In this document: in pieces, positions 7,117 to 39,036 of the stretch
How positions within the stretch are numbered: position 1 is the first letter of the stretch
Layout: every line of letters begins with the position of its first letter
Assembly (NCBI RefSeq): GCF_011038785.1
Contig: NZ_JAAKDT010000006.1
Location: forward strand, 1-64,000
Direction: 5' to 3'
Length of the DNA stretch: 64,000 nt
DNA from: Parabacteroides sp. ZJ-118
GTDB taxonomy: Bacteria > Bacteroidota > Bacteroidia > Bacteroidales > Tannerellaceae
Position numbers and translations under genes: made by a program
The notes under the pieces: generated by a model
Databases searched by the model: none
The model's input: only the letters and a program-made list of their open reading frames with translations
Told to the model about the DNA's origin: nothing

Positions 7117-7121
7117 AGCGA

Positions 7122-7281: not shown

Positions 7282-7310
7282 CTCGAACTATATAAACTTA
7301 CATAAAGCAC

Positions 7311-23880: not shown

Positions 23881-24010
23881 TTTATACGAAACAAAGCCTA
23901 ATCGCGTGACGGATATCGTTTCCTCCAATACATTTTTTATGATTCAAGAAGCAGAAACTTGGATTTTGTCTCAGCCTGATGTCTTGAAGAAAGAGGGCTA
24001 GAGGTCCTTT

Positions 24011-24073
24011 GTCCCAGGTGCTGGGACAGTACACTCCCAAGGCATGGGAGTTATCAGTCCCAATGCTTGGGAC
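24011..24073. repeat. Three short palindromes in tandem, 23-base period
   Basis: GTCCCAGGTGCTGGGAC (24011-24027), CTCCCAAGGCATGGGAG (24034-24050) and GTCCCAATGCTTGGGAC (24057-24073) each form a six-base stem with a five-base loop and are separated by six bases. In the middle unit the outer pair has changed together (G-C to C-G), and the loop bases vary. That is a pattern expected if the hairpin matters. Confidence 0.85.
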
Positions 24074-24125
24074 GGTACTCTTTCGCTGACTTAGCTGATA
24101 TTTATATTTTTAACGGACTATTGCT

Positions 24126-24168
24126 AAAGGACTTGCCATGTATTTCCCATGAATACTGGCAAGCCTTT
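24126..24168 (-). terminator. Hairpin downstream of the small 73-residue gene
   Basis: Arms AAAGGACTTGCCA (24126-24138) and TGGCAAGCCTTT (24157-24168) pair over 12 bases with one bulge. The hairpin lies 18 bases beyond the stop codon of the gene ending at 24186. It lacks a U-tract, so it may stabilise the 3' end rather than terminate by itself. Confidence 0.45.
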
Positions 24169-24185
24169 AAGAAATGCAGATGCGT

Positions 24186-24407
24186 TCATCCTATTTTCAC
24201 CACATCCAAATAAACGGTAGACAAAATGCCTGCTTTTTTAGCATCGATCCCATAGATGCGATAAAAGGCATCGACTACAGCCTGACCTCCGTTCGTTGTC
24301 AATGGATTACTCATGGTTAAAGTTACTACTTCTACACTCATTCCTTTTTCCACACGAATGCCGTTGGCATTCTTTGACTGTTTTACAGTTACTCTAAATA
24401 ATGGCAT
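24186..24407 (-). CDS. Small conserved-looking protein of unknown function
   Basis: A 73-residue product beginning MPLFRVTVKQSKNANGIRVE, followed by a Val-rich stretch (KGMSVEVVTLTM) and a C-terminal half FYRIYGIDAKKAGILSTVYL. It has no signal peptide, membrane segment or cysteine. It resembles small Bacteroidales proteins of unknown function, but I cannot name a family with certainty. It lies 98 bases downstream of the dynamin-like operon on the same strand, so read-through is possible, and it ends before a strong hairpin. Confidence 0.6.
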   Translation of the reverse strand: MPLFRVTVKQSKNANGIRVEKGMSVEVVTLTMSNPLTTNGGQAVVDAFYRIYGIDAKKAGILSTVYLDVVKIG

Positions 24408-24505
24408 ACTACTTTAATTTAAAAATTAGCACTATATTGTTTGATATTGTTGATAAATAACAGATTTATGCCGGTTGAAAATACTTGCTGCCTGCAAATC
24501 GAAAA

Positions 24506-26560
24506 TCAAATCCAATTAAGCGTTAACATTTCGTTCATTTCCGTCTCCATTTTACTTTTTTGCTTGCGTAGCATATCTGCTTTCGTTTTCGCATCTGCCA
24601 ATTTGGCTTCTTTGGAACCTGCTTGCGAACGAATGTCGTCTATTTGTTGTATCATAGGCTCAATCAACTCTGTAAAGAAACTGTCTTTAACCGAATCGAT
24701 GATTTTATCTTTGTTTTTGTAAATAGTCTCTAAAAAGGGAGTCGGATTAAATTCACCACTGATAGAATTTACATATTGATGAAGCTTGTTTACATTTTCA
24801 CTGTGATTCAACACGTTTCCTGCCAATCCTAAAGCTCCCCACATCGCTTTATTTAAGAGACGAAAGATGAATTCACTCCATCCATAGTTCTCATCTTCGG
24901 TGGAACTATCGAATGAAAACATATCTTCATTCTCTATATCCAAATTTATTTTGTGCTCCAGTTCTTTCATAAAATCACCGGGATCGAAATCAGGCACGTA
25001 TTTCATCAGCACGTCATCCACTTCTGCCATAAAATCGCGAACACATTTCTTTATTTCTGTTTTGGCCTTATCACTTAACCCTTCCACCTTCCTTTTCAAG
25101 GTACGGGTTAACAAAGTTTGTTTCACTCCATCCAGCTTTGGAGAAATCTTCTCTATATCCTCCAATCGTCCCCAATTGTCTATGATTTTCTGCATTTTCC
25201 TGCATGAATTATCCACTTCATCTTCCATTTCGTTTTTCCCTTTGCGGATAATTTGCTCGAAGCTATTATCAATGTCGCACCCAAGAAGATCTATTTTTTT
25301 ATTCAGCCTACGTTTTGCCTTTTCCAAGTTTTCTTTTTTTTCTTCCAATTCCTTGTCCGGCTTTCCCAAATTTATCATCATACCCTCGTATTCGCGAAGC
25401 GATTTCTCAACTTCCATCTTTTTGCCATTACCTGCTGCCATGATGGCATTCACCGGCTTTGCAAAAAGAATTTTTTCTTTTTCATTTTCTGCTAATTGTT
25501 TCACAGCTGAGGCTAACTTGCCCAAGTGGCTCTTTTCACGCATTTGGCTTTGGCTACTGATTTCAAAAATGCGGCAAGCACGTTTCCATGCGAACTGGAA
25601 ATCCTCATTGGCTGTGATTTTGCTCATCGGCAGCTCTGACAACAAAGCCATTTCGGCGGACAATGGTATAGGTTCCGCCTGTTTCAATATTTCAGACAAG
25701 GAATCATCCTCACACATTTTGCATGCCTTACGGATCTCCTGTTTCACATATTCTTTTATTTCATCTTCCGTCTCCTCGTTTTCGTATGGGATATCGTATT
25801 TATTGATTCCGATAATAACTTTCCCTATTCCACACTGCCGTACATTTTGAAACAATATTTCCCTGTCTGTCGCATCAAAAGGCCGGCCGGCATAAAGCAT
25901 CATCAACACCACATCCGCTTTTTTCAAAAACGCCTTGGTACGTTCCTCGCGAGAAACAATCGGATCGTTGAATCCCGGAGTATCAACAATCTCTACCCCC
26001 TTCAAGTATTCCTTCGGATAATAGATAGTTACAGATTTAGTAATGGAAATATATTTGCCGTCGGCTCCCACATAGTCTATCAGATTGCCAAATTCGTCTT
26101 CTTGCGTCTTACCCAAGTAAGAGTTAAGCGTAGGGCCTAGTTTGCCGGCCTTTTCCACCAATTCCTTCGCTGCCTTTACCTTCGATTCTTCCAATGCGTT
26201 TCCCTGTACGTCACTCCATGAACGGGAAGCTGTCAACTTCTGTTCCTCCCATTCATCTTTTGTATAAAACTCGGCTACTATTTTCTTACTTTCTCCATAA
26301 GTAATAACGGACAAGGCCGCTGTCATAGGAGTAGTTGCCGCCGGCAGCACATTGTCTTCAAAGACAAAAGAATTCAAGAATGTGGACTTCCCGCATTTCA
26401 TTTGTCCGATCACTCCAATAGTCAAGACATCGTTCTCCAGTTTGTTTACGATTCCTTGCCGGCTTTCCGCTGTTATCCAGCCATATTCGGCTGCTTTTGT
26501 CGCCAATGCTACAAGCCTTTGTTTCTTGTCTTGTAACTCTTCAAATAAATTCTGTTCCAT
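24506..26560 (-). CDS. Dynamin-like GTPase 1 (684 residues)
   Basis: This is a large GTPase of the bacterial dynamin-like class. G1 is GQMKCGKS (residues 53-60), the G2 threonine region is AATTPMTA (about 75-82), G3 is DTPGF (193-197) and G4 is NKYD (253-256). After the G domain come long charged helical stretches (about 370-560) typical of dynamin stalks, then a short hydrophobic patch near WGALGLAGNVLN, and another helical tail. Family members hydrolyse GTP to assemble on and reshape membranes. It is the last GTPase in a four-gene operon, 11 bases after the 619-residue one. The sequence is clearly different from the other two GTPases, so this is a hetero-set and not a recent duplication. 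Confidence 0.85.
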   Translation of the reverse strand: MEQNLFEELQDKKQRLVALATKAAEYGWITAESRQGIVNKLENDVLTIGVIGQMKCGKSTFLNSFVFEDNVLPAATTPMTAALSVITYGESKKIVAEFYTKDEWEEQKLTASRSWSDVQGNALEESKVKAAKELVEKAGKLGPTLNSYLGKTQEDEFGNLIDYVGADGKYISITKSVTIYYPKEYLKGVEIVDTPGFNDPIVSREERTKAFLKKADVVLMMLYAGRPFDATDREILFQNVRQCGIGKVIIGINKYDIPYENEETEDEIKEYVKQEIRKACKMCEDDSLSEILKQAEPIPLSAEMALLSELPMSKITANEDFQFAWKRACRIFEISSQSQMREKSHLGKLASAVKQLAENEKEKILFAKPVNAIMAAGNGKKMEVEKSLREYEGMMINLGKPDKELEEKKENLEKAKRRLNKKIDLLGCDIDNSFEQIIRKGKNEMEDEVDNSCRKMQKIIDNWGRLEDIEKISPKLDGVKQTLLTRTLKRKVEGLSDKAKTEIKKCVRDFMAEVDDVLMKYVPDFDPGDFMKELEHKINLDIENEDMFSFDSSTEDENYGWSEFIFRLLNKAMWGALGLAGNVLNHSENVNKLHQYVNSISGEFNPTPFLETIYKNKDKIIDSVKDSFFTELIEPMIQQIDDIRSQAGSKEAKLADAKTKADMLRKQKSKMETEMNEMLTLNWI

Positions 26561-26571
26561 AATTAGTTATC

Positions 26572-28431
26572 TTACTTCAATTCTTCGTATTCTCTGATGT
26601 ATTTATCCAATCGTTCTTTGCAATCTTTCATTTTCCACCATTCACGTCTCGTTTTAACTAAATCATCATTAGCCTTTCCGGCTTTTTCCCGAGCTTCTTC
26701 TTGCTCTTTATGTAGTCTACATAGCTTTTTTAGTTGAACGTTACGGATCTGATTAAGAAACTCAACAAACCTGTAGTACTCAACCTCATTCATTTCATAC
26801 CTGTCTTTACTGAAAAAATGTTCTTCCCAGCGAGGAATTTTTTCAGTGTCTTTACAATATTCCTTTAACTGATCTATGGTTCTTTTACTGGCAGCATCCA
26901 ATTCGTCACATTTATTGGAAAGTGAAGTCCAACTTTCATAGGCTTCTTTTACTTTTTTTTCTAACTCTTTGGCCTTGCCATCCACAAACGCTCTTAGCTT
27001 CTCGGTATATTGATCACTCAAACTTCTATGGGCAACACTTCTTATAGGATTCATCATATCTTCAAGTGGAGCCTTAGCAGAAAAACGGATAAACTTTTGA
27101 ACCTGCACATTGTTATCGAGCAAGGTCTTACGAATCAATTGTTCTACTTTGTTTACTTCCGTCTCTGCTTTCGTATCAACTTTGTTGACCACTACAAACA
27201 ATGGTTTTTTCAAGTTTTCTTTTATCAAACGGATAGAGCTTCGATTGACCGTACCGGCATTCACATCAAATACCCAAAACAAAGCATCGCATTCGTTGAT
27301 TACCCCGATGGTTCTTTCTGCATCTTCCTTGTCGTTCGAATTAAATCCCGGCGTATCCAGAATACTCAGATTATCCAAGTTCCGGTTCTTGTATGCCATT
27401 ACAAAATACTGAATCAATGAAGATACCCCCTTTACCTGGTCGAGTACTTCTTTATTCACCCGTTTAAACGTATCCTCGCTAAGATTCTTCTGAATATTAT
27501 CCGGCGTGACAAAACTGTAACGCGTATTGACACCTCCCGAAATATAAGTAGGAATGGCTGTGGTTGCTTTGGTACTTACAGGCAGAAGGGGCACGTCGGG
27601 ATTGTCTTGTGACAAGATGCGGTTTACAATCGAAGTTTTACCGGCCGAAAACTCACCCACAAAAGCAATACTGGTTTTCTTTCGAATCCATTGTTTCTTT
27701 GCGGTAACCGCCCATTCTTCCAATCCGCTTCCGAAATAGTCCTCTTCTCCATTTATGGATTCGCTTTTGATACAATCCCGCAACTCACTCCCTATAAAAT
27801 TATACAAGTTATCCACCTTGTTGTAAAGTGCCTTTATGTCAGTATCGCCTATACGAGAGGCTGAGAGTATTTCCTGCACAAAACAGAGAGACTCTACCTT
27901 CAAATTCAGTTCATTGACTTTATCCTCCAGTTTTGCTTTAACCTTTTCCAGTTCTTCATGCAGTAGCCTTGAACTTTCTGTTTCTTTATCCAATTGCTCT
28001 TGCAAAACGTCATTCTCTTCGTCTTTCTTCTTCAACTTTTTCTTGTAATTGTCAATATCATCTTCACAGTCTTCTATCTCGTCTTGCAAGTCCTTAATTT
28101 GTTTCTTCAATTTGTCAATCCCCGCCAATTGCTCTTTGACGTTTTCATCCACATGTCCTTCCAGGCAATTTTTCAATTGCCCGTCCAACCGGGCTATATT
28201 CGCTTTTGCCTCAGCGAGTAAAATCTCATAGCTACTTTTAATATTTTCAGTTTTCTTTTCTCTTTCAAGAATCTTTTGCTCGCACTCTTTTTCCAGCCGT
28301 TCTCTTTCGACCGACCACTCTTGTCCCTTGCCCGTATCAGTTTTCTTACGGCTAATCCAAAAGTAAGTCAGGGCAGCACCTGCGACAGCGGCAACCACTA
28401 TCCATATTATCGTCAGGACCTCCATTTTCAA
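26572..28431 (-). CDS. Membrane-anchored coiled-coil dynamin-like GTPase 2 (619 residues)
   Basis: An N-terminal membrane anchor (residues 5-26, IIWIVVAAVAGAALTYFW) is followed by a long coiled coil (about 40-185) rich in Glu, Lys and Leu heptads. The GTPase domain comes next: G1 GEFSAGKT (259-266), G2 in STKATTAIPT, G3 DTPGF (359-363) and G4 NKVD (416-419). A further helical region ends the protein. Having the coiled coil before the GTPase is unusual for bacterial dynamins and suggests pairing with the coiled-coil protein encoded just upstream, whose stop overlaps this start by four bases. A membrane location with the GTPase in the cytoplasm is inferred. Confidence 0.85.
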   Translation of the reverse strand: MKMEVLTIIWIVVAAVAGAALTYFWISRKKTDTGKGQEWSVERERLEKECEQKILEREKKTENIKSSYEILLAEAKANIARLDGQLKNCLEGHVDENVKEQLAGIDKLKKQIKDLQDEIEDCEDDIDNYKKKLKKKDEENDVLQEQLDKETESSRLLHEELEKVKAKLEDKVNELNLKVESLCFVQEILSASRIGDTDIKALYNKVDNLYNFIGSELRDCIKSESINGEEDYFGSGLEEWAVTAKKQWIRKKTSIAFVGEFSAGKTSIVNRILSQDNPDVPLLPVSTKATTAIPTYISGGVNTRYSFVTPDNIQKNLSEDTFKRVNKEVLDQVKGVSSLIQYFVMAYKNRNLDNLSILDTPGFNSNDKEDAERTIGVINECDALFWVFDVNAGTVNRSSIRLIKENLKKPLFVVVNKVDTKAETEVNKVEQLIRKTLLDNNVQVQKFIRFSAKAPLEDMMNPIRSVAHRSLSDQYTEKLRAFVDGKAKELEKKVKEAYESWTSLSNKCDELDAASKRTIDQLKEYCKDTEKIPRWEEHFFSKDRYEMNEVEYYRFVEFLNQIRNVQLKKLCRLHKEQEEAREKAGKANDDLVKTRREWWKMKDCKERLDKYIREYEELK

Positions 28432-28835
28432 TCTCTTATTTTATCTTTCAAACGTCCTATCTCCAGCTCATAATGTTCACATGCCGCTTTATACTCCTGT
28501 ATCTTTTGGCACAAATCATCATTCTGCATACGGAGTTTCTTTATTTCTTTCTTCGCATCCTGCAAATCATCTTCCAGATCATCGTGAGCGTCATCTTTTT
28601 TCTTATACTGTTTATTCAGTTTCCGGTTTTCCGCCAACAAATCTTCTATCTGCCGTTCCATTTCTTTGTTTCGCTTGTGGAACTTTTCATTTTCCGCATA
28701 CAACCGTTCCATCTCTTGTTGCAGAGTTTGCAGTTTTGAGGAACTGTTATCAAACAATTTATCTTTTGCATAAATGCCGGCGCCGGCACCGATCACTGTA
28801 CCTAATATAAATTCTACCATTTTAAGATTCTTCAT
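28428..28835 (-). CDS. Small glycine-rich membrane segment plus coiled-coil protein
   Basis: This 135-residue protein begins with a glycine-containing hydrophobic stretch (residues 8-22, FILGTVIGAGAGIYA) and continues as an almost unbroken charged coiled coil (about 30-133) dense in Lys, Glu, Asp and Gln. It looks like a membrane-tethered partner for the 619-residue GTPase, which has the same anchor plus coiled-coil layout. It starts directly after the stop of the 598-residue GTPase and overlaps the next gene as ATGA. I do not recognise a named family; YtxH-like proteins share the layout only. Confidence 0.75.
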   Translation of the reverse strand: MKNLKMVEFILGTVIGAGAGIYAKDKLFDNSSSKLQTLQQEMERLYAENEKFHKRNKEMERQIEDLLAENRKLNKQYKKKDDAHDDLEDDLQDAKKEIKKLRMQNDDLCQKIQEYKAACEHYELEIGRLKDKIRD

Positions 28836-30632
28836 TTATAGTGTTAATAACTGATTTTTGTAATCTCGCAACAACGTCATTCTTTTTTCATAATCGTCCT
28901 TTTGGGCTTTCCGTTCCTCTCTCAATTGTTCTAAGGACGCAGTCTTCTCTTGAATAGTTTCATAGGCTTCCCTATGCAACACTTCCTGTATGGAAGAGAC
29001 CAGTTGTTGTTCAATGCGACTCATGGCCTGTTTGAATTCAGGCATCAGTGTATCTTCCATATATTGGCGGATGGCTCTTTTCCGTTGAGGTTTTCCCCAT
29101 CCTTTGTCTGTAACGAACCCTACCAGGGATTCTACTATGCCTTTTTGACAACCCACCTGTTCTCCTATTCGTCGGTTGCACGCATCAATGCTACTCAATT
29201 TATCACCGGTCCTGCTTGCTATATCAATCGCTTTTTCTATTCTGTTGGCGGTCTTGTTGTTCGACATGATACTACCTACATCACTGACTGTATCAGCCAC
29301 GTCAACAGCACTTCCGACTGCCACGGCCGCTCCCCCTGTTCCGGCTGTCCCGACCACAACAGCCACAGCACCTATGGCTGCTGCGACAATCTTTACCCCG
29401 TCGGCTATCATACTGTCGTATGTATGTCCAATGGAATTCAAATCCAAGTTATAGCTGATGTCCGAAATGGAAAGTGAGGATAAATCCAGTTCCTCCAACG
29501 ATCGAAGCGGAATGGTGTTTTCCGTTTGCTGCTTTGCCTTTTTACGAAGGATGCCATGAATGTTGTTTCTGAAATCGTTCATCAACAGACTGCTGGTATT
29601 ATTAATGACCGAAATCGCATCGGAATCAAAATTTTGGCTTTTGCCAACCACCAAAACATCCAACTTCTCGGAAATAATGTCTTCAAACTGACGGGATAAC
29701 TGTACGCTATTTTCATTAATGTCTTCACGGGTAGATTCAACCAATGTATTAATACTCTGATTCAGACGTTTTAATTCATACTCTTGTCTTCTGATAGCCT
29801 CATCCAGTCCCTTGTCAGACGAAGAAGCCTGTAACAGTTCATTAATGTGTTGCAACAGCCTGTTGCTTATATTTTTAAGCCGTTGGGCATTCACTTGCTT
29901 CAGAATGTTCGCCTTATCTTTCTGTATCGAATCCAACAGATTGTACAGTTCATCCAAATTACCGGTAGCAACAGAAACACAAGCTATCTGTTTCAAAGGC
30001 AGTTGAATATTTTCACTGATATATTGCCGCACGGCATCCAATTCAGAGGAAGACTTGGTGTCACATTTTGTGATAACCAAAAAGATTGGACGCTTGACCA
30101 ATTTCATCGTTTCGATAAAATCCGTCAGCGATCGCGTTATTTGCTGATTGACATCCGTAACCAAAAGAACGCCATCCGCCTGCGGCAAGAAATCAACAAG
30201 GGTTTGTTTATGTTTTGGATCAGGAGAAGACAATCCCGGTGTGTCAACCAATACGGTTGTTGCAGGGATACGGGTGGACGTATCAAATACGTTTACCACT
30301 GTCGATCCGGTCAGCTTATCATTCTTCAAATCCGCTATATCTTCCACCTCTCGCATCTCTCCGTTCTCACCAACGACAGTAGCATGGCACCTGTCGCATC
30401 CAAAATGGATTTCATAGATTGTAGCAGTAGTAGGCTGTGTAGCTGTTTCCAGTTTTTTACTGTCTGTAAGGGCATTGACAAGCGTTGTTTTTCCCGCACT
30501 GAACTCTCCTACCAAAGGCAATACAAGCTCAGCATCATCGCTCAACGACTTTGCCTTTACTTGATTTAATTCTGCAATCAAACTTTTTAAGCTCAGAGTC
30601 TGAGCAATTGTAATTAAAGTGTCTTCCAGCAT
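28836..30632 (-). CDS. Dynamin-like GTPase 3 with Gly/Ala-rich membrane segment (598 residues)
   Basis: This is the first gene of the operon. G1 GEFSAGKT is at residues 42-49, G2 lies in ATQPTTATIYE (64-74), G3 DTPG is at 130-133 and G4 is TKCD (188-191). Helical stalk-like stretches follow (230-400). A hydrophobic Gly/Ala/Val-rich segment (about 414-447) may act as a membrane-inserting paddle like that of bacterial dynamins, and a charged coiled-coil C-terminus (about 540-598) ends the protein. A purine-rich AAAGGA sits five bases before the ATG, Shine-Dalgarno-like and unusual for this phylum. The nearest described layouts are LeoABC and the tandem Campylobacter dynamins, but I cannot show homology closer than the family. 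Confidence 0.85.
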   Translation of the reverse strand: MLEDTLITIAQTLSLKSLIAELNQVKAKSLSDDAELVLPLVGEFSAGKTTLVNALTDSKKLETATQPTTATIYEIHFGCDRCHATVVGENGEMREVEDIADLKNDKLTGSTVVNVFDTSTRIPATTVLVDTPGLSSPDPKHKQTLVDFLPQADGVLLVTDVNQQITRSLTDFIETMKLVKRPIFLVITKCDTKSSSELDAVRQYISENIQLPLKQIACVSVATGNLDELYNLLDSIQKDKANILKQVNAQRLKNISNRLLQHINELLQASSSDKGLDEAIRRQEYELKRLNQSINTLVESTREDINENSVQLSRQFEDIISEKLDVLVVGKSQNFDSDAISVINNTSSLLMNDFRNNIHGILRKKAKQQTENTIPLRSLEELDLSSLSISDISYNLDLNSIGHTYDSMIADGVKIVAAAIGAVAVVVGTAGTGGAAVAVGSAVDVADTVSDVGSIMSNNKTANRIEKAIDIASRTGDKLSSIDACNRRIGEQVGCQKGIVESLVGFVTDKGWGKPQRKRAIRQYMEDTLMPEFKQAMSRIEQQLVSSIQEVLHREAYETIQEKTASLEQLREERKAQKDDYEKRMTLLRDYKNQLLTL

Positions 30633-30677
30633 AGTTCCTTTCTTGCCTCCCTTGTTCCCAATCGTTCGGCATTCTTT

Positions 30678-30685
30678 TCTAAATT
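30678..30685 (-). promoter_or_regulatory. Weak candidate -7 box for the dynamin-like operon
   Basis: The minus strand reads TAATTTAG (one mismatch to TAnnTTTG), 46 bases before the first ATG and just after the U-tract of the proximal RNA unit. No convincing -33 box exists. The operon may instead depend on read-through of that RNA terminator. Confidence 0.3.
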
Positions 30686-30692
30686 ATCCCAA

Positions 30693-30966
30693 TAAAAAAA
30701 GCGCGGGAACTGTTACCTAATTATCCAATCCAGAGGTATCGCCAAACACCTTCAATCCGGATAATCAAACAACAACCCGCGCTCTATACTGTGATGTTTC
30801 TTGTCTGGGACATAGAAAGATACAGTAGAGCGCAAGCATTTGTTGCCTACTATTCCCGGATTGTTGAAAATTGGCGATTTTCTGGATTGGGAATAATATC
30901 GTAAACGCTTTTTCGCTTTTCAGTATGTCCTTCCGTTCGATTGCCTCGCTTGGCTTCTACTTGAAA
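30693..30966 (-). ncRNA. Structured RNA unit A (proximal to the dynamin operon)
   Basis: On the minus strand this unit folds as a closed 5' arm, a middle hairpin and a 3' arm. The 5' arm has AGCGUUU (30908-30902) with AAAUGCU (30840-30834) and AUUAUUCCC (30896-30888) with GGGAAUAGU (30856-30848). The 3' arm has AGCGCGGG (30782-30775) with CCCGCGCU (30706-30699), an inner AUUAUCC stem and an apical AGGU/ACCU hairpin, then seven U. The two apical loops contain AUCGCCAA and UUGGCGAU (8 complementary bases, 30877-30870 and 30744-30737), a predicted kissing interaction. It has its own promoter. I do not recognise the family. Confidence 0.7.
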
Positions 30967-30971
30967 TTACT

Positions 30972-31002
30972 GCAAATGTACCGAAAAGCTATTTGTAAAC
31001 AA
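30972..31002 (-). promoter_or_regulatory. Promoter of structured RNA unit A
   Basis: The minus strand has TTTG (31002-30999), exactly 19 bases, then TACATTTG (30979-30972), an ideal Bacteroidetes vegetative promoter. Its start near 30966 defines the 5' end of unit A. Confidence 0.75.
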
Positions 31003-31028
31003 AACATATATTCGTATAAAATCAGGCA

Positions 31029-31302
31029 AATAAAAAGCGCAAGCCTATCGCTCATTATCTGACTTAGAGGTATCGGCAAACACCCACTATCGAAGATAAT
31101 AGAGCAACAGCTCACGCCTATGTCGTATGTTGGGAAACCGGGCGGCTTCTCATTATATACAAACCAGCATGAGCGTTTGTTGCCTATTATTCCCCGATAG
31201 TAAAATTTTGCCGATTTCCTAAGTCGGGAATAATATCGTAAACGCTTTTTTGCTTCTTTTATGTCCTCCGCCGGGCTTTCTTCGCAGGGAAGCCGTCACG
31301 GA
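31029..31302 (-). ncRNA. Structured RNA unit B (distal tandem copy)
   Basis: The same layout as unit A, with diverged sequence. The 5' arm has AGCGUUU (31245-31239) with AAACGCU (31177-31171) and AUUAUUCCC (31233-31225) with GGGAAUAAU (31193-31185). The 3' arm has GCGUGAGC (31116-31109) with GCUUGCGC (31043-31036), all eight pairs forming only on the minus strand through two G-U pairs, followed by five U. The loop-loop pair is AUCGGCAA with UUGCCGAU (31214-31207 and 31078-31071), differing from unit A by one compensatory change. The middle hairpin is not conserved in sequence. Confidence 0.7.
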
Positions 31303-31307
31303 TTGTC

Positions 31308-31315
31308 GCAAATGT
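31308..31315 (-). promoter_or_regulatory. Promoter -7 box of structured RNA unit B
   Basis: The minus strand reads TACATTTG at the position equivalent to the unit A promoter. The -33 element seen in unit A is not obvious here. Confidence 0.55.
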
Positions 31316-31534
31316 AGCAATCTTATTTGATCTATCATCTTACTATCCTCGCTTTTTTGTGTTTTATCGGAAAACAATTTTTCCTTTTCCCCGCAAAGGA
31401 ATCGGTTGGGAGAGACAAAAAGTGTCCGAGGCAGGGATGAAAAATAGGGACTCCCTAAAGGTGGTCTTCCTGCGTTCCGGCAAACATCATCCGGTGTTCC
31501 GTAAAAACAGCCTACGACCGGTTGGTGAAAAGGA

Positions 31535-31578
31535 TATAGGCAGTGAGCAAAAAATGTATAGGCAGTGGGCAAAAAGTG
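31535..31578. repeat. Two 22-base direct repeats at the WYL gene promoter (possible operator)
   Basis: Copies at 31535-31556 and 31557-31578 share TATAGGCAGTG and GCAAAAA blocks and differ at only a few positions. They abut the -7 box at 31579 and cover the -35/-33 region. This is a natural place for an autoregulatory or activator site. About 190 further bases to the left (31330-31530) hold nothing I can assign. Confidence 0.7.
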
Positions 31579-31586
31579 TATCTTTG
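31579..31586 (+). promoter_or_regulatory. Promoter -7 box of the WYL regulator gene
   Basis: TATCTTTG is a perfect TAnnTTTG box, 83 bases before the ATG. No -33 TTTG is present at the right distance; the 22-base repeats occupy that place. Confidence 0.6.
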
Positions 31587-31669
31587 CCGGGAGATGCAGG
31601 TCGTGGGAAGATTGAAATGCAGAGATAGGGAATTATTAGCAGAAACATCAGTGGATATAATACAAGCGT

Positions 31670-32566
31670 ATGAATAAGTATGAGCGCTGTCTTTGGATTG
31701 TCAGCACATTTATGGATTATGGGAATGCTTCGCTGAAGGAGTTGAACGAGCGTTTCCTGCGTTATTCGCAAAATTATGAGGGCGAGGAGATACAGCCGCG
31801 GACGTTCGACCGCGACAGGCGCTATATCGCGTTGACCTTCCGGGTCGATATCGACTTCGATCCGCGCCTTAAGAAGTATTGCCTGGTGAATCCGGAGGAG
31901 ATACGGGACAATGCGGTCTTCAAATACCTGCTGGGAAGCCTGCATGTCAATAATCTTTCCGCATTGGCGTTGAAACATAGGGAGAAGATCCGGTTGCAGG
32001 AGATACCGACCGGAGTTGAATGGTTGCACCTATTGTTGGATGCCATTGATAAGGGGCGGACGGTCTGTTTCAACTATACCTCCTATTATGCCAAAGAGAA
32101 GGAGTTTACTTTTGAGCTGATTCCCTGTTTTGTCAGGATGTTCGAACAGCGGTGGTATCTGATCGGCGAATATCCGGACCGTAGCCAGACGCGGGTATTG
32201 GCGTTGGAACGGATGAGCCGGGTGCGGATAGGAGAGAAACAGCTGGCCCCTTCGCCCGACATGACGCCGGACCGGTTCTACCGAGATTGCTTCGGCATTA
32301 TCCGGGATGACAAACAGCCGGAAGAGGTGGTTTTGAAAGTCTACCGCAGCCAGGCCGATTATATGCGTTCCGTCCCGCTCCATCCTTCGCAAGAGGAGCT
32401 GGAAGCTGCGGATGATTATGTCGTGTTCCGGTACTATCTGCGACCGTCGTACGACCTTGTCCAGCGTTTGTTATGGCATAGGGAGGGAGTGGAGGTGTTA
32501 CGCCCGGCATCGCTTCGGGAGGAGATGCGCGACCTGCTCCGAAGGATGTCGGGGTTGTATGAATAG
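31670..32566 (+). CDS. WYL-domain transcriptional regulator
   Basis: The 298-residue protein has an N-terminal winged-helix DNA-binding region (about 1-75, with RTFDRDRRYIA as the likely recognition segment), a central WYL domain (about 125-200) whose name-giving Trp-Tyr-Leu is at residues 162-164 (RWYLIGEY), and a C-terminal WCX-like domain (about 220-298). WYL proteins sense ligands, often nucleic acids or nucleotides, and relatives such as BrxR and CapW repress phage-defence operons. This gene is divergent from the RNA units and the dynamin-like operon and is likely to regulate them, its own promoter, or both. It ends one base before the converging TonB receptor gene ends. Confidence 0.88.
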   Translation: MNKYERCLWIVSTFMDYGNASLKELNERFLRYSQNYEGEEIQPRTFDRDRRYIALTFRVDIDFDPRLKKYCLVNPEEIRDNAVFKYLLGSLHVNNLSALALKHREKIRLQEIPTGVEWLHLLLDAIDKGRTVCFNYTSYYAKEKEFTFELIPCFVRMFEQRWYLIGEYPDRSQTRVLALERMSRVRIGEKQLAPSPDMTPDRFYRDCFGIIRDDKQPEEVVLKVYRSQADYMRSVPLHPSQEELEAADDYVVFRYYLRPSYDLVQRLLWHREGVEVLRPASLREEMRDLLRRMSGLYE

Positions 32567-35434
32567 TTAGAATCCTATTTTGAAAGAGGCGCCGAACACA
32601 CTGGGAGTACCCGCCACGAATGTGGGGAAGCCGATCTGGTTGCCGCTGTTGCCGGCATCCACCAGGTACTTCTCGTTGAGGATGTTCTTGCCGAACAGAC
32701 CCACTTCATAATAGCACTTGGCAGCCTTCACCACTACCCCCGCATTGGCATTGAGCAATCCATATCCCTGCTGGGAGAGCAGCTCGCTGTTCTCATTCTC
32801 GAAATACACCTTTGACTTATAATTATACGCAGGGCGGAAGTAGACGGTAGCCTGCCGGCTTACCGGCAGGGTCACATCGATACCCACGGCTGCCGAATGT
32901 TTCGGTGTCAGGCGGAAACGGTTTCCCGCATATTCCTGTGCGTGCCCGTCGCTGTCCTCGTCGTTGAATTTCCCGTCGATGTAGGCATAGTTGCCAAACA
33001 GGCTGAACACAGGGCTGAAGGTGTAACGCAATCCCGTTTCCACTCCCAGGCTGTGCGCCTTGCCAGCATCGTCCGCCACATACTTTTTCGTACCGTTCTC
33101 GTCGGTTTCGAGGCGACTGCTCTGGAAGTGGCTCCAGTCGTAGTAGAAGAGCGAGAGGTCATAGTTCAACCGGTTATCGAACACTACACCCTTTACCCCC
33201 GCTTCGTAGCTCACGATGATTTCAGGTTTCAGGCGGGTGACCTCATCGGGACGGTTGTTGAAAGCGATGACAGCGGGACGCCTGCCGCGTGAAATGCCGG
33301 CATACACGTTGTTGCGCCCGATCATGTAGCTGAGTGCGGCGCGCCCTACCCAAGAGTAGTAGCCTCCGCTTTCCCATACACGCTTACCGTCCGAAGACTG
33401 ATAGAGCAAGGAAGAGCCAAGCAGCGGGGCACTCTCCGACGTGGAGGAGTAGCCGGTGCGCTGATGCTCGTAGGAGCCGCGCAGTCCCGCGGTGAAACTC
33501 AACCGCTTGGTGATGCGCCAGGTGAGGTCGGCAAACAGTTCGACCGCCTGGTTGGTGGCATAGTTGGTTGAATTTTCCTGATACGTGTCGGGAATCGCCA
33601 CGTTGCTGTAGGCAGGCAGACCGGCTTGTGTGAGCGAGGCGCTTACATCGCCGGTAATCTGCGCCGCCACCGCTTCGGGGGTCATTCCTAGCAGGCTCAG
33701 GTAGGGTTTCACTCCATCGCTGCCGAAGAGCTGTACCAACACGTTGTTTACCGTATGGTTGATGTCGTTGTAGAAGTCGGGCGTAGCACTCCAGGCAGAT
33801 GCGTTCATCTGCTCATCCCATTGGGCGGCCACTCCTGTCAACGCTGTGCTCAGATTGTTTTGGATGGCGGCTTGCAGCTGTCCTTTTAGTCCGGCCACGA
33901 TCGGCGCAAACGCCGGATAGGCTGCCGCGATCTGGTCGAGTTGCGCCCCCACACCCTGCACCACGCCGGTGGTGACGGTGGCAGGCAAGTTGAGCGATTG
34001 GATCGTCTTTTTGAAGCTCTCGCCCGCAACCAACGGCAACGTCTGTTGCAGGTTGCTATACAGTTGCACATTCTGTTGCGAATGTTCGTAGAAGTAACCG
34101 GTTCCGACAAAGCCTGCCCACTTGCCGCCGTTGTCCCAGTTGAGACGCAGCTCCTGCGAGAACTGATTGCCTTTGACATTCTCCTGGCAGTCGAGCAGGT
34201 TGAGGTAAGTACCATCGGCATCAAATTTCTCATTGCTCTTGTAGGCACGGAATCCGGTGATGCCGGTCAGTTTGAGCGTAGGCGAGAGGATGTGGTCGAC
34301 GGTAAAGGCCGCCCCTCCGGTATGGCGTTTGATGCCCAGTTCCTCCCCACCGTTCAGGTAGGCGGCAGTAAAGGGAGAGGTGTCGCCCCCCTGTGGCGCC
34401 AGCAGGTTGCTTTTGAAGGAGGTGCCGGGATAGTTGTCATGCTGGTAGTCGAGAACCAAGTTCAGGACTGTGTTTTCGCCGGCCAGGAGACGCGTGCTGT
34501 TGCGCATGGCGACGGCACTTTTGCCGTTGAGCCTCCCGCCCGCCAGGTTGTCGATATACCCGTCGTGTGCGTCGTAACTGAAAGCGAACCGGTTGGCGGC
34601 CTTTTCGCTCAGGGGCGTGTTGAGGTATCCCTCGGCTCCTCTCTGGTTGTGCGTGCCGTAATTCAGCTTGACCTCCCCGCCCAATTGGGACGCAGGTTTG
34701 TTGCGCAGCAGGTGCATGGCGCCAATCTCCGCGCCCCGCCCGAAAAGGGTCCCCTGCGGTCCCTTCACCACTTCAATCCGTTCCATGTCGTATAACTCCA
34801 CCACCGAAGCCTGCGAACGGGAGATGGAAACACCATCCATGAATACCGAAATGCGCGGTTGGGAATAGCTTTCACCCCCATCGCTCGTCACACCGCGGAT
34901 CACGTAACCCGGGTTGTTGGGACTCTGGATCTGCACCTGTAAACCGGGCGTGAAGGCAGCCATCTCATCCATTTGCTTGATGTTGAGGCGCGCCATGGCG
35001 GTACCACTCAATGCGCTGACGGCAGTCGGCACCTCGATGCTGGTCTGGCGTCGCTTTTGAGTAGTCACCACCACTTCGCCCAACGCTTGCGCGTCCTCTT
35101 CCAGTACCACCACCCATTCGTCACGGTTCTCTGCCGTCTGTTCCGACTCCCGGTAACCGATGTAGGAGAAGACCAGCTTCCCGTCTTGAGGCATCGAAAG
35201 GCTGAAATGGCCATTTATATCCGTGATGGTACCCGTATCGGCACCTTTGACACGCACGTTCACCCCGATAAGCGGTTCACCTCGCTCATTGATCACTTTT
35301 CCCTTTACGGGAACTACATTAGCATCCACCTTCATCGAAGCCGTTTCGGTCCTGCCCAAGGCGTGGATGCTGATAGGCATAGCCAGCGTCAAGGCGCCGA
35401 ATATGCATAGTTTGAAAACATTCTTTTGTACCAT
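32567..35434 (-). CDS. TonB-dependent outer-membrane receptor with carboxypeptidase-like N-terminal domain
   Basis: The 955-residue protein has a signal peptide (about 1-25), a CarboxypepD_reg-like domain (about 40-125, VKGKVINERGEPLIGVNVRVKG), a plug domain (about 140-260, with RISVFMDGV and IEVVKGPQGTLFGRGAEIG) and a 22-strand-type barrel ending in an aromatic residue (FKIGF). No SusD partner is adjacent. The plug resembles small-molecule or iron-complex receptors more than glycan SusC proteins. It follows ppx by 48 bases on the same strand with no clear promoter, so it may be the third gene of a ppk1-ppx-receptor transcript. The ligand is unknown. Confidence 0.88.
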   Translation of the reverse strand: MVQKNVFKLCIFGALTLAMPISIHALGRTETASMKVDANVVPVKGKVINERGEPLIGVNVRVKGADTGTITDINGHFSLSMPQDGKLVFSYIGYRESEQTAENRDEWVVVLEEDAQALGEVVVTTQKRRQTSIEVPTAVSALSGTAMARLNIKQMDEMAAFTPGLQVQIQSPNNPGYVIRGVTSDGGESYSQPRISVFMDGVSISRSQASVVELYDMERIEVVKGPQGTLFGRGAEIGAMHLLRNKPASQLGGEVKLNYGTHNQRGAEGYLNTPLSEKAANRFAFSYDAHDGYIDNLAGGRLNGKSAVAMRNSTRLLAGENTVLNLVLDYQHDNYPGTSFKSNLLAPQGGDTSPFTAAYLNGGEELGIKRHTGGAAFTVDHILSPTLKLTGITGFRAYKSNEKFDADGTYLNLLDCQENVKGNQFSQELRLNWDNGGKWAGFVGTGYFYEHSQQNVQLYSNLQQTLPLVAGESFKKTIQSLNLPATVTTGVVQGVGAQLDQIAAAYPAFAPIVAGLKGQLQAAIQNNLSTALTGVAAQWDEQMNASAWSATPDFYNDINHTVNNVLVQLFGSDGVKPYLSLLGMTPEAVAAQITGDVSASLTQAGLPAYSNVAIPDTYQENSTNYATNQAVELFADLTWRITKRLSFTAGLRGSYEHQRTGYSSTSESAPLLGSSLLYQSSDGKRVWESGGYYSWVGRAALSYMIGRNNVYAGISRGRRPAVIAFNNRPDEVTRLKPEIIVSYEAGVKGVVFDNRLNYDLSLFYYDWSHFQSSRLETDENGTKKYVADDAGKAHSLGVETGLRYTFSPVFSLFGNYAYIDGKFNDEDSDGHAQEYAGNRFRLTPKHSAAVGIDVTLPVSRQATVYFRPAYNYKSKVYFENENSELLSQQGYGLLNANAGVVVKAAKCYYEVGLFGKNILNEKYLVDAGNSGNQIGFPTFVAGTPSVFGASFKIGF

Positions 35435-35482
35435 AAATAGAATATATACCTGTTTTTCTTTTTTCCGGATGGATTGGAAACG

Positions 35483-36412
35483 TTATTTGGATGCAAAAGA
35501 ACGAGAAATAGCTTCCTGGTTCTTGATGTACAGGCTGTCGATGATACCGTCTGCCAGGCCGATGACCGGCACATGGATATACTCGGCTTTGACAATCTCG
35601 GCAATGGTCAGAAAGATCTTGGCCGCGGGAACGATCACGTCAGCACGGTCTGCTTTCAGATCAAACTCCTCCATGCGCTGTTCTGGCGTAAGAGGCTCCA
35701 GCACATCATACAGGCCCTGCAATGTCGGAACAGGCAAGCGCAGATTCTTCTTGTCTTTCAGGTCGGCAAGCCGGTACAGCTTGTTGATATTGCCACCCGA
35801 ACCGATGATATTGATGTTCCGGTGATCGGCGGTCAAGCGGACCAGGTCACTCTTCATCCGTTCCCAGCACCCCTCCTCCACGGCATTGCTCAGTATCCGG
35901 ACCGTGCCTATATTGTAAGAAAGAGACTGCGTCAGTTCGCCGTCGATCAACAGGTTTATCTCCGTGCTTCCGCCACCGACATCCACATAGATGTAGCTCC
36001 CGGTACGGTCTTCCGTGCATTCCACATGGTTGTTGTAGACGATGCGCGCCTCCTCCTCTCCGCCAATCACCTCGATATGGATGCCGGTATCCTTTAAAAT
36101 CTTCTTGATGACAGGCTTGCCGTTTTTGGCATCGCGCATGGCAGAGGTGGCACAAGCCCGGTAGTCCGTCACCTCATAAATTTTCATCAGTTGGCGGAAA
36201 GCCTTCATCAGCCGGAGTAATTTCATCGTCTTTCCGTCGGAAATCTCTCCCAAAGAGAACACATCGAACCCTAGACGCAACGGCACCCGCAAGAGCATCA
36301 CCTTGGAAAGGCGTCTGTTTACCGACTTCCCGTTGTCTTTCACTTTTTTAATCAACAGCCGCACGGCATTGGTGCCGATATCGATAGCGGCATAACATCT
36401 GTTATCAGCCAT
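35483..36412 (-). CDS. ppx: Exopolyphosphatase / guanosine pentaphosphatase family protein
   Basis: From the ATG at 36412 (MADNRCYAAIDIGTNAVRLL) the product has 309 residues and matches the N-terminal catalytic actin-like fold of Ppx/GppA. The phosphate-1 loop is AIDIGTNAVRLLI, VIGGEEEARIVYNN carries the catalytic Glu region, and YVDVGGGSTEI is the phosphate-2 loop. It lacks the C-terminal HD-like domain of the long E. coli form. It should trim polyphosphate or pppGpp. It overlaps the ppk1 stop by eight bases, so synthesis and breakdown of polyphosphate are encoded together. The frame is open upstream, but that extension would lie inside ppk1. Confidence 0.9.
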   Translation of the reverse strand: MADNRCYAAIDIGTNAVRLLIKKVKDNGKSVNRRLSKVMLLRVPLRLGFDVFSLGEISDGKTMKLLRLMKAFRQLMKIYEVTDYRACATSAMRDAKNGKPVIKKILKDTGIHIEVIGGEEEARIVYNNHVECTEDRTGSYIYVDVGGGSTEINLLIDGELTQSLSYNIGTVRILSNAVEEGCWERMKSDLVRLTADHRNINIIGSGGNINKLYRLADLKDKKNLRLPVPTLQGLYDVLEPLTPEQRMEEFDLKADRADVIVPAAKIFLTIAEIVKAEYIHVPVIGLADGIIDSLYIKNQEAISRSFASK

Positions 36413-38468
36413 TCGTAATTTGTGATTTGTAATCGTTATATAGTTCTTCCTGCGAGCGGAAATCTCCCTCTTCCTCCGTTGTCCAAGGGCGATTTTCTCC
36501 GGTTCCATCGACGATGTTTCCCTGGCAATTGTCTCGAAGCCCGAAGTCAATGACCTTCCATAGATCTTCTTTGACCTGAGGATCGTAAACCGGAGTGACG
36601 ACCTCCACCCGGTTATCCAGGTTGCGCGGCATCCAGTCCGCCGAACCGATGAAGGTCTTGTTCTCTCCACCCGCCGCGAAGATGAAGATCCGCGAATGCT
36701 CCAGATACCGGTCTATGATGCCGTTGATACGGATTCTGTCGCTCACCACGGGAATACCTGTCATCAGGGAGCAATTGCCGCGTACCAACAGGTCGACGGG
36801 AACCCCGTTTGCGGATGCCTCATAGAGCTTCTTCACCATGGCCACATCTGTAATGTGATTGATTTTGATACGGATATAAGCCGGTTTGCCCGCCTGCTTG
36901 TTCTTTATCTCCTCGTTGATCAGCCGGACAAACTTCTGCCGCATCTCATTGGGGGAGACCAGCAGCTCCTTGAAGCGGACCGGCGAATAGGGCTTCTCGA
37001 TGAAGGTGAACACGGCGTCCACATCCCGTACCACGTTGCGGGCGGCAGTCATCAGCATATAGTCCGTGTACACGCGGGCGTTGCCTTCATGGAAATTCCC
37101 GGTACTGATGCAGGCGATGTCATTCCCCGAACCCATACTGATATGCGTGATCTTGGAATGCACCTTCAGTCCCTCCACCCCAAAAATGACGTGGATGCCG
37201 GCATCCTGCATCTTCTTGGACCAATCGATGTTGGAGGCTTCGTCGAAGCGTGCCAGCAACTCAATGACCACGGTCACCTTTTTCCCGTTGCGGGCGGCGC
37301 AAATAAGGGCTTTAACCACCTTGGAATCCTTGGCCAGGCGGTAGAGTGTTGTCTTTACGCTTTTCACCTCCTTGCTGACAGCCGCCTCCTGCAAGACGCG
37401 GATGTAATATTCGAAGCTGTGATAAGGTACGTGAATGAAACGGTCTCCCTGCTGTATCCGCCTCAAAAGGCTTTCGCCACTGTTCAGCTCGGGTCTTATC
37501 AGAGGCTCCCACACCGGATACCTCAGATCCTCGCGCCCGCAGTCGGGAAAAGACATCAGATCCTTGTGGTTGTGGTAACGTCCGCCTGCCAGAACCGTAT
37601 CCAGCTTGTCCAGGTTCAACTTGTTCATGACGCGCTTCAACAGGTCCTTGGGCATCTCCGCATCATAAATCACCCGCAGGGCATCTCCCTTCTTGCGGCT
37701 TTTTATCCCCTTTGAAATCTTCTGCAACATGCCGTTGCGCAGGTCATTGTCGATCTCCATCTCGGCATCTTTGGTGAATTTGAACGCGTATGCCTTGAAG
37801 GAGACATAACTCAAACCGGAGAAAATCATGGGTAGGCAATAGCGGATGACATCGTCCAAATACATCAGGAAGCTTTTTCCTTCCTTGTCGGGCAAGCTTA
37901 TAAAACGTCCGCATTCAGCTACCGGAAGCGTGATCAAAGCATAGTCGCTCCCTTTCTTGTCCTTGGCCTGCATCTTGACGGCAAGGTAAATATTCTCATC
38001 CGCCTCGTCGGTCAGCTGTTTCACGGCCGACAGCCAGACCGGGCTGATAAAGCCACTCAGCCGCTGCCGATAAAACCGGCGTATAAACTTTTGCTGGTTT
38101 TCATCCAGTTCATCCTCTTTCAGCAAGAATATATTTTCCTCGCCCAACCGACGGGTTACCTCGTGGATGGCATGCTCATATTCCTTTGAATAATGGTTGT
38201 TCAATTTGTTGATCTGCTTGATAAGGGATCGTGCGTGCTCCCGTTCGGCACGCAGGCTTCTGTCCTCACACTCGGCGATACGGTTGAGCGTGGCCACGCG
38301 GACACGGAAGAATTCGTCCAGGTTGTTGGAATAGATCCCGAGAAAGCCCAATCTGTCCAACAAAGGGACCCGGCTTTTAGAGGCTTCTTGCAAAATGCGG
38401 CGGTTGAAGTACATCCAACTCAAATCGCGGTCGACGTATGCCTCCGATACAGTTTTCTTATTAATCAT
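36405..38468 (-). CDS. ppk1: Polyphosphate kinase 1
   Basis: This enzyme reversibly transfers the gamma-phosphate of ATP to polyphosphate. The 687-residue length is normal. N-terminal family text is DRDLSWMYFNRRILQEA, followed by NNLDEFFRVRVATLNR. The phosphorylated catalytic His is in GLKVHSKITH, and the second conserved His is in GNFHEGNARVYTDY. The C-terminal phospholipase D-like half carries NRSTGTP-equivalent and DNRVEVVTPV segments. It is the first gene of the ppk1-ppx pair. A TATTTTTG promoter box lies 26 bases before the ATG. Confidence 0.95.
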   Translation of the reverse strand: MINKKTVSEAYVDRDLSWMYFNRRILQEASKSRVPLLDRLGFLGIYSNNLDEFFRVRVATLNRIAECEDRSLRAEREHARSLIKQINKLNNHYSKEYEHAIHEVTRRLGEENIFLLKEDELDENQQKFIRRFYRQRLSGFISPVWLSAVKQLTDEADENIYLAVKMQAKDKKGSDYALITLPVAECGRFISLPDKEGKSFLMYLDDVIRYCLPMIFSGLSYVSFKAYAFKFTKDAEMEIDNDLRNGMLQKISKGIKSRKKGDALRVIYDAEMPKDLLKRVMNKLNLDKLDTVLAGGRYHNHKDLMSFPDCGREDLRYPVWEPLIRPELNSGESLLRRIQQGDRFIHVPYHSFEYYIRVLQEAAVSKEVKSVKTTLYRLAKDSKVVKALICAARNGKKVTVVIELLARFDEASNIDWSKKMQDAGIHVIFGVEGLKVHSKITHISMGSGNDIACISTGNFHEGNARVYTDYMLMTAARNVVRDVDAVFTFIEKPYSPVRFKELLVSPNEMRQKFVRLINEEIKNKQAGKPAYIRIKINHITDVAMVKKLYEASANGVPVDLLVRGNCSLMTGIPVVSDRIRINGIIDRYLEHSRIFIFAAGGENKTFIGSADWMPRNLDNRVEVVTPVYDPQVKEDLWKVIDFGLRDNCQGNIVDGTGENRPWTTEEEGDFRSQEELYNDYKSQITNG

Positions 38469-38493
38469 TTTTTACTTGTTAACGATTCCCGGC

Positions 38494-38501
38494 AAAAATA
38501 T
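38494..38501 (-). promoter_or_regulatory. Promoter -7 box of ppk1
   Basis: The minus strand reads TATTTTTG, a perfect TAnnTTTG box. The leader would be about 20 bases. Confidence 0.5.
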
Positions 38502-38769
38502 GCGGCGCATATTGCAAAAGCATGTTATTGGGATGAAAATTCAAAGAAGAAAACCTTTTAATCCCATCGCACCCCTGCAACGGTACCAACTCGTGCCCGC
38601 CGAACAGCCTCGCACCGATGCGTTTCAGTATACTTACATTGGCAAGGTGTTGAAAAAACAGGGTTTTCAGCTCACGAAATCGAAAGGGAAAACGCCTTTT
38701 TGAGATCACGGAAATCACGTTGGAACTGGGAAAAGCCCATTTCTCTGTGCCCAGCCCTCCCCGTTTTTT

Positions 38770-38845
38770 CCATTGAAACCCGATCGGAAAACCATTGAGA
38801 TACGGCGTTAAGTCAATGGAACGCGAGACGGATTCCATTGACTTA
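38770..38845. repeat. Tandem array of CCATTGA motifs with 22-base period, ending in a 13-base inverted repeat
   Basis: CCATTGA occurs at 38770 and 38792, in inverted form at 38813, and again at 38835, steps of 21-22 bases. The last two form perfect arms TAAGTCAATGGAA (38809-38821) and TTCCATTGACTTA (38833-38845). The 535-base gap between the ppk1 promoter and the MBOAT gene holds no convincing coding frame otherwise. Confidence 0.75.
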
Positions 38846-39036
38846 GCCGAGCAAATAGTTATTCTTCTTTGCCTCGATATCTATTTTCGTAAATTTATCG
38901 GCAGCTAAAACCTTGAGGTACGTGACCCGCATCCCTCCGGGAAGAAATTGCGAAGGCTTCTTCAAAAGATGCTGGAGCGCTACCTTTCTACGCCTGTACA
39001 GGCATCGACTCACGCCGATATACGTGTTTGCCTTCC

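Follow-up and report, generated by a model that had tools for sequence, protein, structure and literature searches.

The window analysed here comprises the first 64,000 nucleotides, forward strand, of contig NZ_JAAKDT010000006.1 of Parabacteroides sp. ZJ-118 (RefSeq assembly GCF_011038785.1), and our subject is an operon within it that encodes three dynamin-like GTPases, A, B and C, together with a small coiled-coil protein, CC. Our analysis shows that these four genes are one co-inherited, horizontally moving unit, that they sit in an island which is absent or replaced at one chromosomal site in sister genomes, and that the head of this island, a WYL-domain regulator gene and a tandem leader RNA, is common to sister islands that carry known defence proteins. 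The features, in window coordinates, are as follows.

23882..39013, no strand: whole island, about 15.1 kb, absent in sister genome G036 and delimited by the DNA match between the window and G036, whose flanks are 77-94% identical
24186..24407, minus: DUF6140 protein, 73 residues, at the tail of the module (PF19637, 135 bits)
24506..26560, minus: dynamin C, 684 residues, the most conserved GTPase of the three (PF00350, 83 bits)
26572..28431, minus: dynamin B, 619 residues, TTG start; predicted N-terminal transmembrane helix, coiled coil 38-190, GTPase at about 250-450 and helical C-terminus (PF00350, 65 bits)
28428..28835, minus: CC, 135 residues, with a hydrophobic N-terminal segment and a predicted coiled coil, from the list of open reading frames (ORFs)
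28836..30632, minus: dynamin A, 598 residues; predicted N-terminal GTPase, helical stalk and paddle-like hydrophobic segment near residue 415 (PF00350, 68 bits)
30690..30935, minus: leader RNA copy 1, predicted long hairpin and 3' T-run, 58 bp upstream of A (z -9.9)
30973..31003, minus: putative promoter of Bacteroidales type (TTTG-N-TANNTTTG), immediately preceding RNA copy 1
31028..31272, minus: leader RNA copy 2, in tandem and aligned with copy 1 (z -9.8)
31528..31571, plus: two 22-nt direct repeats upstream of the WYL gene, a candidate operator
31670..32566, plus: WYL/WCX-domain transcription regulator, divergent from the cassette (PF13280 and PF25583, both above cut-off)

The locus was singled out by a sequence-only reading, whose description of three dynamin-like GTPases of 598, 619 and 684 residues and a 135-residue protein, separated by gaps of 0, -4 and 11 bases, is borne out by the ORF list of the window and by matches to Dynamin_N (PF00350) of 65-83 bits against a Pfam cut-off of 27 bits; CC has coiled-coil-type Pfam matches at or below cut-off only. 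Its other structural remarks held up as well. The two RNAs at the head fold about 10 standard deviations below shuffled sequences and covary in 31 copies, the divergent regulator has the expected WYL and WCX domains, and the cassette is AT-rich: its GC content is 37-44%, compared with 51-62% in the 18-22 kb region and 51-59% in the region that spans about 31.5 to 38 kb. The adjoining 22-24.5 kb stretch is itself at 40-47%. The DUF6140 gene at the cassette tail is part of the same module; copies of it, 88% identical, close the modules L022 and L117/L176.

All three GTPases belong, by GTPase domain and P-loop, to the BDLP-like part of the dynamin superfamily. The P-loop pattern is found in 54 of 54 homologues of each, and the [NT]KxD motif in 49, 50 and 54 of the 54 homologues of A, B and C, respectively. 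A profile search of solved structures places C among BDLP-like dynamins with a helical stalk, matching BDLP at 2.3e-17 and 5owv (Campylobacter DLP1) at 8.9e-15 over residues 35-623. By sequence, the best solved match of A is IniA, and B finds only an EHD GTPase and coiled coils. The AlphaFold2 (AF2) model of A, with a predicted local distance difference test (pLDDT) score of 76, matches IniA (6j72) at 2.4e-14 and BDLP at 8.3e-14 in Foldseek, and that of B (pLDDT 84) matches BDLP at 6.8e-14; both also match 5owv and 5oxf. In VIA, the model of A reaches Z 18.7 with 334 aligned and a root-mean-square deviation of 8.9, and the model of B reaches Z 17.6 against 2j68 with 322 aligned and a deviation of 8.1. 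On these models A and B fall in the BDLP/IniA/mitofusin fold group, with a certain GTPase fold and an unreliable stalk pose, because the whole-chain TM-scores are only about 0.3.

Membrane anchors are predicted on B and CC, in line with the anchors that had been proposed for one GTPase and the small protein. Judged by hydrophobicity only, an N-terminal hydrophobic 17-mer is present in 48 of 57 homologues of B and 43 of 49 of CC, as well as 18 of 58 of C; the model of B opens with a helix at 3-26, hydrophobic enough for a transmembrane segment, which the long coil 38-190 follows. On the same measure, 46 of 55 homologues of A have a paddle-like hydrophobic 17-mer starting at 396-445, a segment that is modelled at pLDDT below 50.

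That the four genes travel together can be seen from their distribution. An alignment of C, scanned over a genome collection of 84,980 species, gave 58 loci, which is a lower bound as the search used two short peptide patterns; C is present in all 58 by construction, because the loci were found through it. With five family loci and the window added, and four duplicate contigs dropped (L029, L031, L042 and L047, the same contigs as L022, L023, L025 and L024), the set comprises 60 loci, L026 among them. Profile hidden Markov models find A, CC, B and C in 50 of these, in the order A-CC-B-C in 50 of 50, and three more (L049, L057, L070) have an unscored ORF of 128-131 residues at the CC slot. The remaining seven are partial, broken or end at contig ends: in L037 neither A nor CC is present and B is short, despite 9.4 kb read upstream, L043, L059 and L083 run off their contigs, L063 has no C ORF called, and L081 and L086 have no CC called. 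L025, with a broken A, is counted as present among the 50 and was excluded from the distance test and the tree; in this locus (Tannerella forsythia ATCC 43037, 5895-8827) a 322-residue ORF, perhaps a transposase, is inserted in gene A.

Pairwise distances of A, B and C over 54 loci correlate with r = 0.85, 0.90 and 0.91, the maximum of 500 permutations per pair being 0.35, and in a tree of 46 rows, for which 14 loci were picked by hand, each of the three forms one clade with support of 100/99 or better. Tannerella forsythia (L024) groups with Prevotella jejuni (L046) in all three GTPase trees, which points to horizontal transfer. L062 and L068, from Treponema-titled metagenome-assembled genomes (MAGs), fall among Bacteroidota rows at a weakly supported exact position. 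Since many of the records are MAGs, a host name like Treponema may stem from faulty binning. Two integrase-like genes (by eye) adjoin the cassette in L026, and Phage_integrase occurs in 3 of 146 scanned cassette neighbours. A core, syntenic gene set, or genes that do not occur together, which the sequence-only reading had named as findings that would count against it, is not what we see: a strong B match occurs in 6 of 123 family genomes and C in 4 of 393 order genomes and 2 of 395 phylum genomes, own genome counted each time, the gene order is kept in 50 of the 60 loci, and the site is empty in G036. A core envelope gene was rejected on this rarity in family, order and phylum and on the empty site. 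Carriage by a phage or prophage was rejected too, two short peptide patterns having found no relative in viral contigs and the phage collection having a single poor match (36% coverage, 25% identity).

At one chromosomal site the island is either absent or replaced. Genome G036 matches the window to 23881 and again from 39014, with 75 bp in place of the island, and in G034 both flanking genes stand side by side with no island. A different island, 12.4 kb long, occupies this site in G037. Its DNA matches that of the window (blastn, E 1e-10) only in the RNA (77-86%) and in the WYL gene (73%), and its payload includes a non-specific endonuclease, an M48 peptidase and a homologue of JukA (220 bits). 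In our window the island also holds, at 32567-38468, genes resembling a TonB receptor, PPX and polyphosphate kinase (by eye); the genome has a second polyphosphate kinase, at 36% identity.

In sister genomes the head of the island is accompanied by known defence proteins. Orthologues of the WYL regulator (E up to 1e-60) occur in 14 of the 123 family genomes, own counted, and in 9 of the 13 sisters (G037, G043, G048, G052, G058, G059, G061, G064, G068) the RNA lies within about 4 kb of the gene. The payload of G043 lies beyond the contig end and was excluded from the payload count; at the WYL-plus-RNA loci with visible payload, JukA (G037, G048, G058, G059, G061) or BnzB (G052, G064, G068) is found in 8 of 8. 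PADLOC scores for the six scanned payloads are 82-220 bits, and G048 and G068 were assigned through 100% and 83% identity to scanned copies. JukA (of Juk) and BnzB (of Bunzi) are both known anti-phage proteins, unrelated to the dynamins although they lie behind the same head. JukA is described as a sensor of early phage vesicle proteins (PMC13282480).

These observations support a tie between the WYL regulator, which is the commonest named family among the 146 neighbours of the cassettes that were scanned (Pfam assigns 7, PADLOC up to 9), and defence genes, as had been suggested from the sequence. The suggestion that RNAs and regulator are parts of the cassette is not supported as it stood: both are present at its head, but they are common to other payloads, and the RNA also precedes genes for secreted proteins, so that WYL gene and leader RNA are a shared socket driving various payloads, not cassette parts. 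There is precedent in BrxR, a WYL repressor of a defence island of whose homologues 48% stand beside defence systems (PMC9122601). As with BrxR and CapW, a WYL protein adjoins defence genes here, but it is paired with a leader RNA, and its role as a repressor is only putative. No counterpart of the direct repeats at 31528-31571 was seen in the upstream regions read for 11 WYL orthologues; a twelfth orthologue was not located. Separately, in G049, from a species with the cassette, contig 11 (L126) carries JukA and BnzB led by the RNA, and contig 102 (L127) an RNA-led 553-residue protein followed by a small toxin-antitoxin-like pair (by eye).

Given these results, we consider it probable that the island is an exchangeable one directed against phages and that the operon is its payload. 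By rarity counts, site comparison and trees the locus is patchy, moves horizontally and is exchanged with defence genes, and the case for phage defence is stronger because the sister payloads behind the same WYL gene and RNA carry JukA or BnzB. Several observations weigh against it. Four of the 13 sister WYL loci (G038, G042, G050, G121) are without the RNA, and a blastp comparison with the scanned copies shows neither JukA nor BnzB in them; G050 has an AAA ATPase with PtuA-type matches, and the locus of G042 is cut off. At L022 and L023, the other two cassettes of Parabacteroides, the RNA is present, but the 19 kb read contain no close WYL gene. Among neighbour clusters WYL ranks only third, at 10 of 60 loci, after two clusters with no clear function. 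Outside Parabacteroides most cassettes are without a comparable hairpin, and in about 20 of the 40 loci that were read (classified by eye; for the most part L125, L128-L149) the leader RNA lies some 10-160 bp before genes for large proteins that look secreted or adhesin-like. The element is thus not confined to defence, and a shared leader alone is no proof of defence. Relatives of C were not found in viral contigs by two short peptide patterns, and no match covering 80% of C was found in the plasmid and phage collections. Finally, passages of PMC4159319 tie LeoABC to vesicle release and not to defence.

How else might such an operon be explained? The dynamins and CC could be an envelope-stress machine that repairs or vesiculates the inner membrane when antibiotics, bacteriocins or osmolarity stress the cell, phage protection being incidental. 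Dynamins of BDLP-like fold remodel membranes, the leader RNA also precedes secreted-looking proteins, and a mechanosensitive-channel-like gene (by eye) adjoins the locus. LeoABC affects vesicles (PMC4159319), and DynA is described as a guard of the membrane against antibiotics (PMC8844932). However, a housekeeping role predicts wider retention than that of a cassette which is rare, patchy and swapped with a JukA island, and the channel gene is part of the conserved flank and is kept without the island; we regard this explanation as rather unlikely.

Eleos is a dynamin defence system, and the operon could also be a divergent Eleos, a three-gene form of LeoA/LeoBC. The two share neighbouring dynamin-like GTPases, and PADLOC Leo profiles, which span much of A and C and the GTPase part of B, score 26-73 bits against A, B and C (LeoBC to C 73 bits, LeoA to A and C about 62-64 bits), both sets being dynamins. 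Yet in a true Eleos pair from a sister species in the same genus, G056, LeoA scores 286 bits. In blastp the G056 proteins show weak similarity to A, B and C, and they give nothing above 15 bits with the A, B and C profiles, whereas the distant plasmid trios described below score 67-225 bits. In the tree the Leo proteins are placed outside the clades of A, B and C, but their branches are long. Where Eleos has two GTPases, LeoBC and LeoA, and no CC, the order here is A-CC-B-C in 50 of 60 loci. Membership of Eleos was rejected on the profile scores (at most 73 versus 286 bits to Leo profiles, at most 15 bits for the G056 pair to A, B and C profiles), and a divergent form seems to us unlikely; the proposal of a distinct candidate system fares well on the same comparison. 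The kind of system, dynamin defence, is known, because defence by Leo-type dynamins has already been described as Eleos (PMC11811056), and its three-GTPase variant with CC appears distinct. Such a system is unnamed among the top titles and abstract starts of the open-licence literature, an absence that proves little.

Other bacterial dynamins offer partial parallels. The Campylobacter structures 5owv and 5oxf share the fold (C aligns over 35-623) and the idea of a hetero-oligomer, but that system is a dynamin pair and the cassette here a trio. LeoBC is split into two genes in enterotoxigenic Escherichia coli (PMC4159319). Bacillus subtilis DynA likewise acts at the membrane, where it delays phage lysis (PMC8844932), but it is a single protein, a fusion of two dynamins (PMC4159319), and A, B and C score 54-55 bits to the DynA model against a cut-off of 1600. 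Mycobacterial IniA, the best Foldseek match of A, belongs to a different operon and is linked to isoniazid (PMC4159319, discussion).

The trio itself extends further than the form with CC. By tblastn, distant dynamin operons were found on plasmids of Photobacterium, Calditerrivibrio, E. coli and Pseudomonas aeruginosa, and each of these four, as well as G810, one genome of Bacteroidota, has one A-, one B- and one C-best-scoring protein. Profile scores in the plasmid trios are 67-93 bits for A, 82-134 for B and 188-225 for C where unbroken (C 188-232 with G810 included); CC has no profile match above 8.4 bits in the plasmid trios or G810, and the N-terminal anchor is missing from B of all four plasmid trios. 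The E. coli trio occurs in 5 of 5426 complete genomes, plasmid-borne each time; in records H33-H35 three dynamin genes are annotated. C is split into two ORFs in L193 (E. coli), and A is short in the P. aeruginosa plasmid. Since plasmids and G810 carry the trio without CC, the three-dynamin trio looks old, and CC with a usually anchored B is the form that occurs in Bacteroidota and in four Spirochaetota-titled MAG loci, two of which have an anchored B. The Photobacterium trio (L191) sits between traU and traN of a conjugation region, and another distant trio (L197, 5273-8373) has a TerB protein and a 525-residue protein between B and C. On contig 7 of G067 (L027), two other dynamin-like genes stand beside phosphatase-, kinase- and Hsp70-like genes (by eye).

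The leader RNA is a structured, strand-specific element with strongly covarying helices and its own putative promoter box. The two copies in the window are 78% alike over 99 nt. The motif TTTG-N-TANNTTTG has only one exact match in the window, where about 0.9 is expected by chance. Of 51 RNA copies, 49 are preceded by the TANNTTTG box at a distance of 15-60 nt (2% in shuffles). The RNA was found in 31 of 123 family genomes, some of the matches being short, and L132 has four tandem copies. An alignment of 31 of the 51 copies from the loci read, in which related copies are not independent, gives consensus pairing in 95.9% of 1317 cells. Two-sided changes occur in 21 of 43 pairs, versus 17.2 in shuffles, of which 4 of 500 reach 21, and the covariation score is 0.499, versus 0.212 in shuffles (0 of 500 reach it) and at most 0.107 when slid. 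Every one of the 31 aligned copies folds better on the gene-sense strand, the consensus energies being -53.9 versus -28.2 kcal/mol. G-U outnumber C-A cells 199:15, a count that leans on a structure derived from the gene-sense strand; on the reverse strand G-U is still above C-A, 106:27.

Could this RNA be a repeat, of the kind of a miniature inverted-repeat transposable element, that lies upstream of genes by chance? It is multi-copy, often tandem, palindromic and mostly confined to one genus (27 of the 31 genomes are Parabacteroides). Against this stand the promoter box, the compensatory changes and the gene-sense folding just described; moreover, of the terminal copies that have enough adjoining sequence (42), 35 lie within 300 bp of an ORF on the same strand and 2 of one on the opposite strand, while the remaining 5 have no such ORF. 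We hold a chance repeat to be improbable on these grounds. A relative of type III toxin-antitoxin modules, in which the tandem RNA would directly neutralise the downstream proteins, is suggested by the order of promoter, tandem structured RNA, T-run and gene, which is the layout of ToxIN, but is very improbable, direct inhibition of all the unrelated proteins that the same RNA precedes, secreted-looking ones included, being unlikely.

Because the 3' T-run is conserved, an attenuator or intrinsic terminator is the natural guess for the RNA's role. A simple terminator scan did not call it as a terminator, and such scans, like those for sigma-70 promoters, gave little above chance. Rfam has no match at the locus at gathering score and two chance-level matches below threshold, and a literature search aimed at such a leader showed nothing like it among the titles listed. 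The RNA was not found in plasmids or phages at E 1e-3, and two viral contigs match its pattern by 17 letters only, with no wider match. Among cassettes outside the genus, the regions upstream of L085 and L072 are structured (z -7.1 and -5.6, mononucleotide shuffles), with no significant blastn match to it. Elsewhere in the window, a cobalamin riboswitch is predicted at 6930-7128, minus strand (101 bits).

Further protein families recur around the cassettes. One of about 464 residues is near 12 of the 60 loci on the opposite strand (e.g. L023, 4457-5851), its single scanned copy having no Pfam match, and a uracil-DNA glycosylase-like protein, a weak match below the Pfam cut-off, is near 11 (e.g. 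L075, 13349-13975). A protein of 131-135 residues, perhaps a fifth subunit, begins 8-15 bp past C in L040, L045, L048 and L051 and is near 7 loci overall. DUF1232 proteins recur near other cassette loci.

Returning to the anti-phage payload, how could it work? The WYL protein and the terminator-like leader may silence the cassette, or keep its expression low, until an infection lifts this control. In the inner membrane B and CC would be anchored through their N-terminal helices, with the coiled coils in the cytoplasm, and would nucleate a complex by recruiting or capping A and C, the paddle of A inserting into the membrane; LeoABC and the 5owv/5oxf pair provide a precedent for hetero-partners. 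The resulting hetero-dynamin assembly of A, B, C and CC could, upon GTP hydrolysis, remodel the inner membrane at phage-induced damage. Two outcomes can be envisaged: sealing or tethering, by which lysis would be delayed and entry of phage DNA blocked, or collapse of the membrane as abortive infection. Provided that the operon is an anti-phage payload, we lean towards sealing or tethering over killing; the delay of lysis by DynA is a precedent for dynamin action against phage lysis.

A more far-reaching picture, which we offer tentatively and regard as doubtful in its entirety, is that Parabacteroides has a plug-in immune socket, made up of a WYL sensor and a tandem terminator-hairpin leader RNA that would itself be the infection switch, payload mRNA being made only on read-through during infection. 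Complete defence systems would be exchanged in this socket at one position of the chromosome. On this view, the operon studied here would be the anchored form of an old A/B/C immune machine that is also found on plasmids in Pseudomonadota and Deferribacterota, and the first hetero-tri-dynamin defence complex.

To our knowledge, the bacterial dynamins described so far are single proteins, fusions or pairs, and little is understood of what they do in immunity. A conserved trio in which each GTPase is a clade of its own, joined by a membrane-anchored coiled-coil protein, would offer structural and functional work a hetero-dynamin assembly that occurs in nature, with a link to the eukaryotic antiviral dynamins (Mx, GBP). 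The leader RNA could be a riboregulator of immunity. More generally, our analysis predicts that uncharacterised payloads behind the WYL-plus-RNA head should be defence systems.

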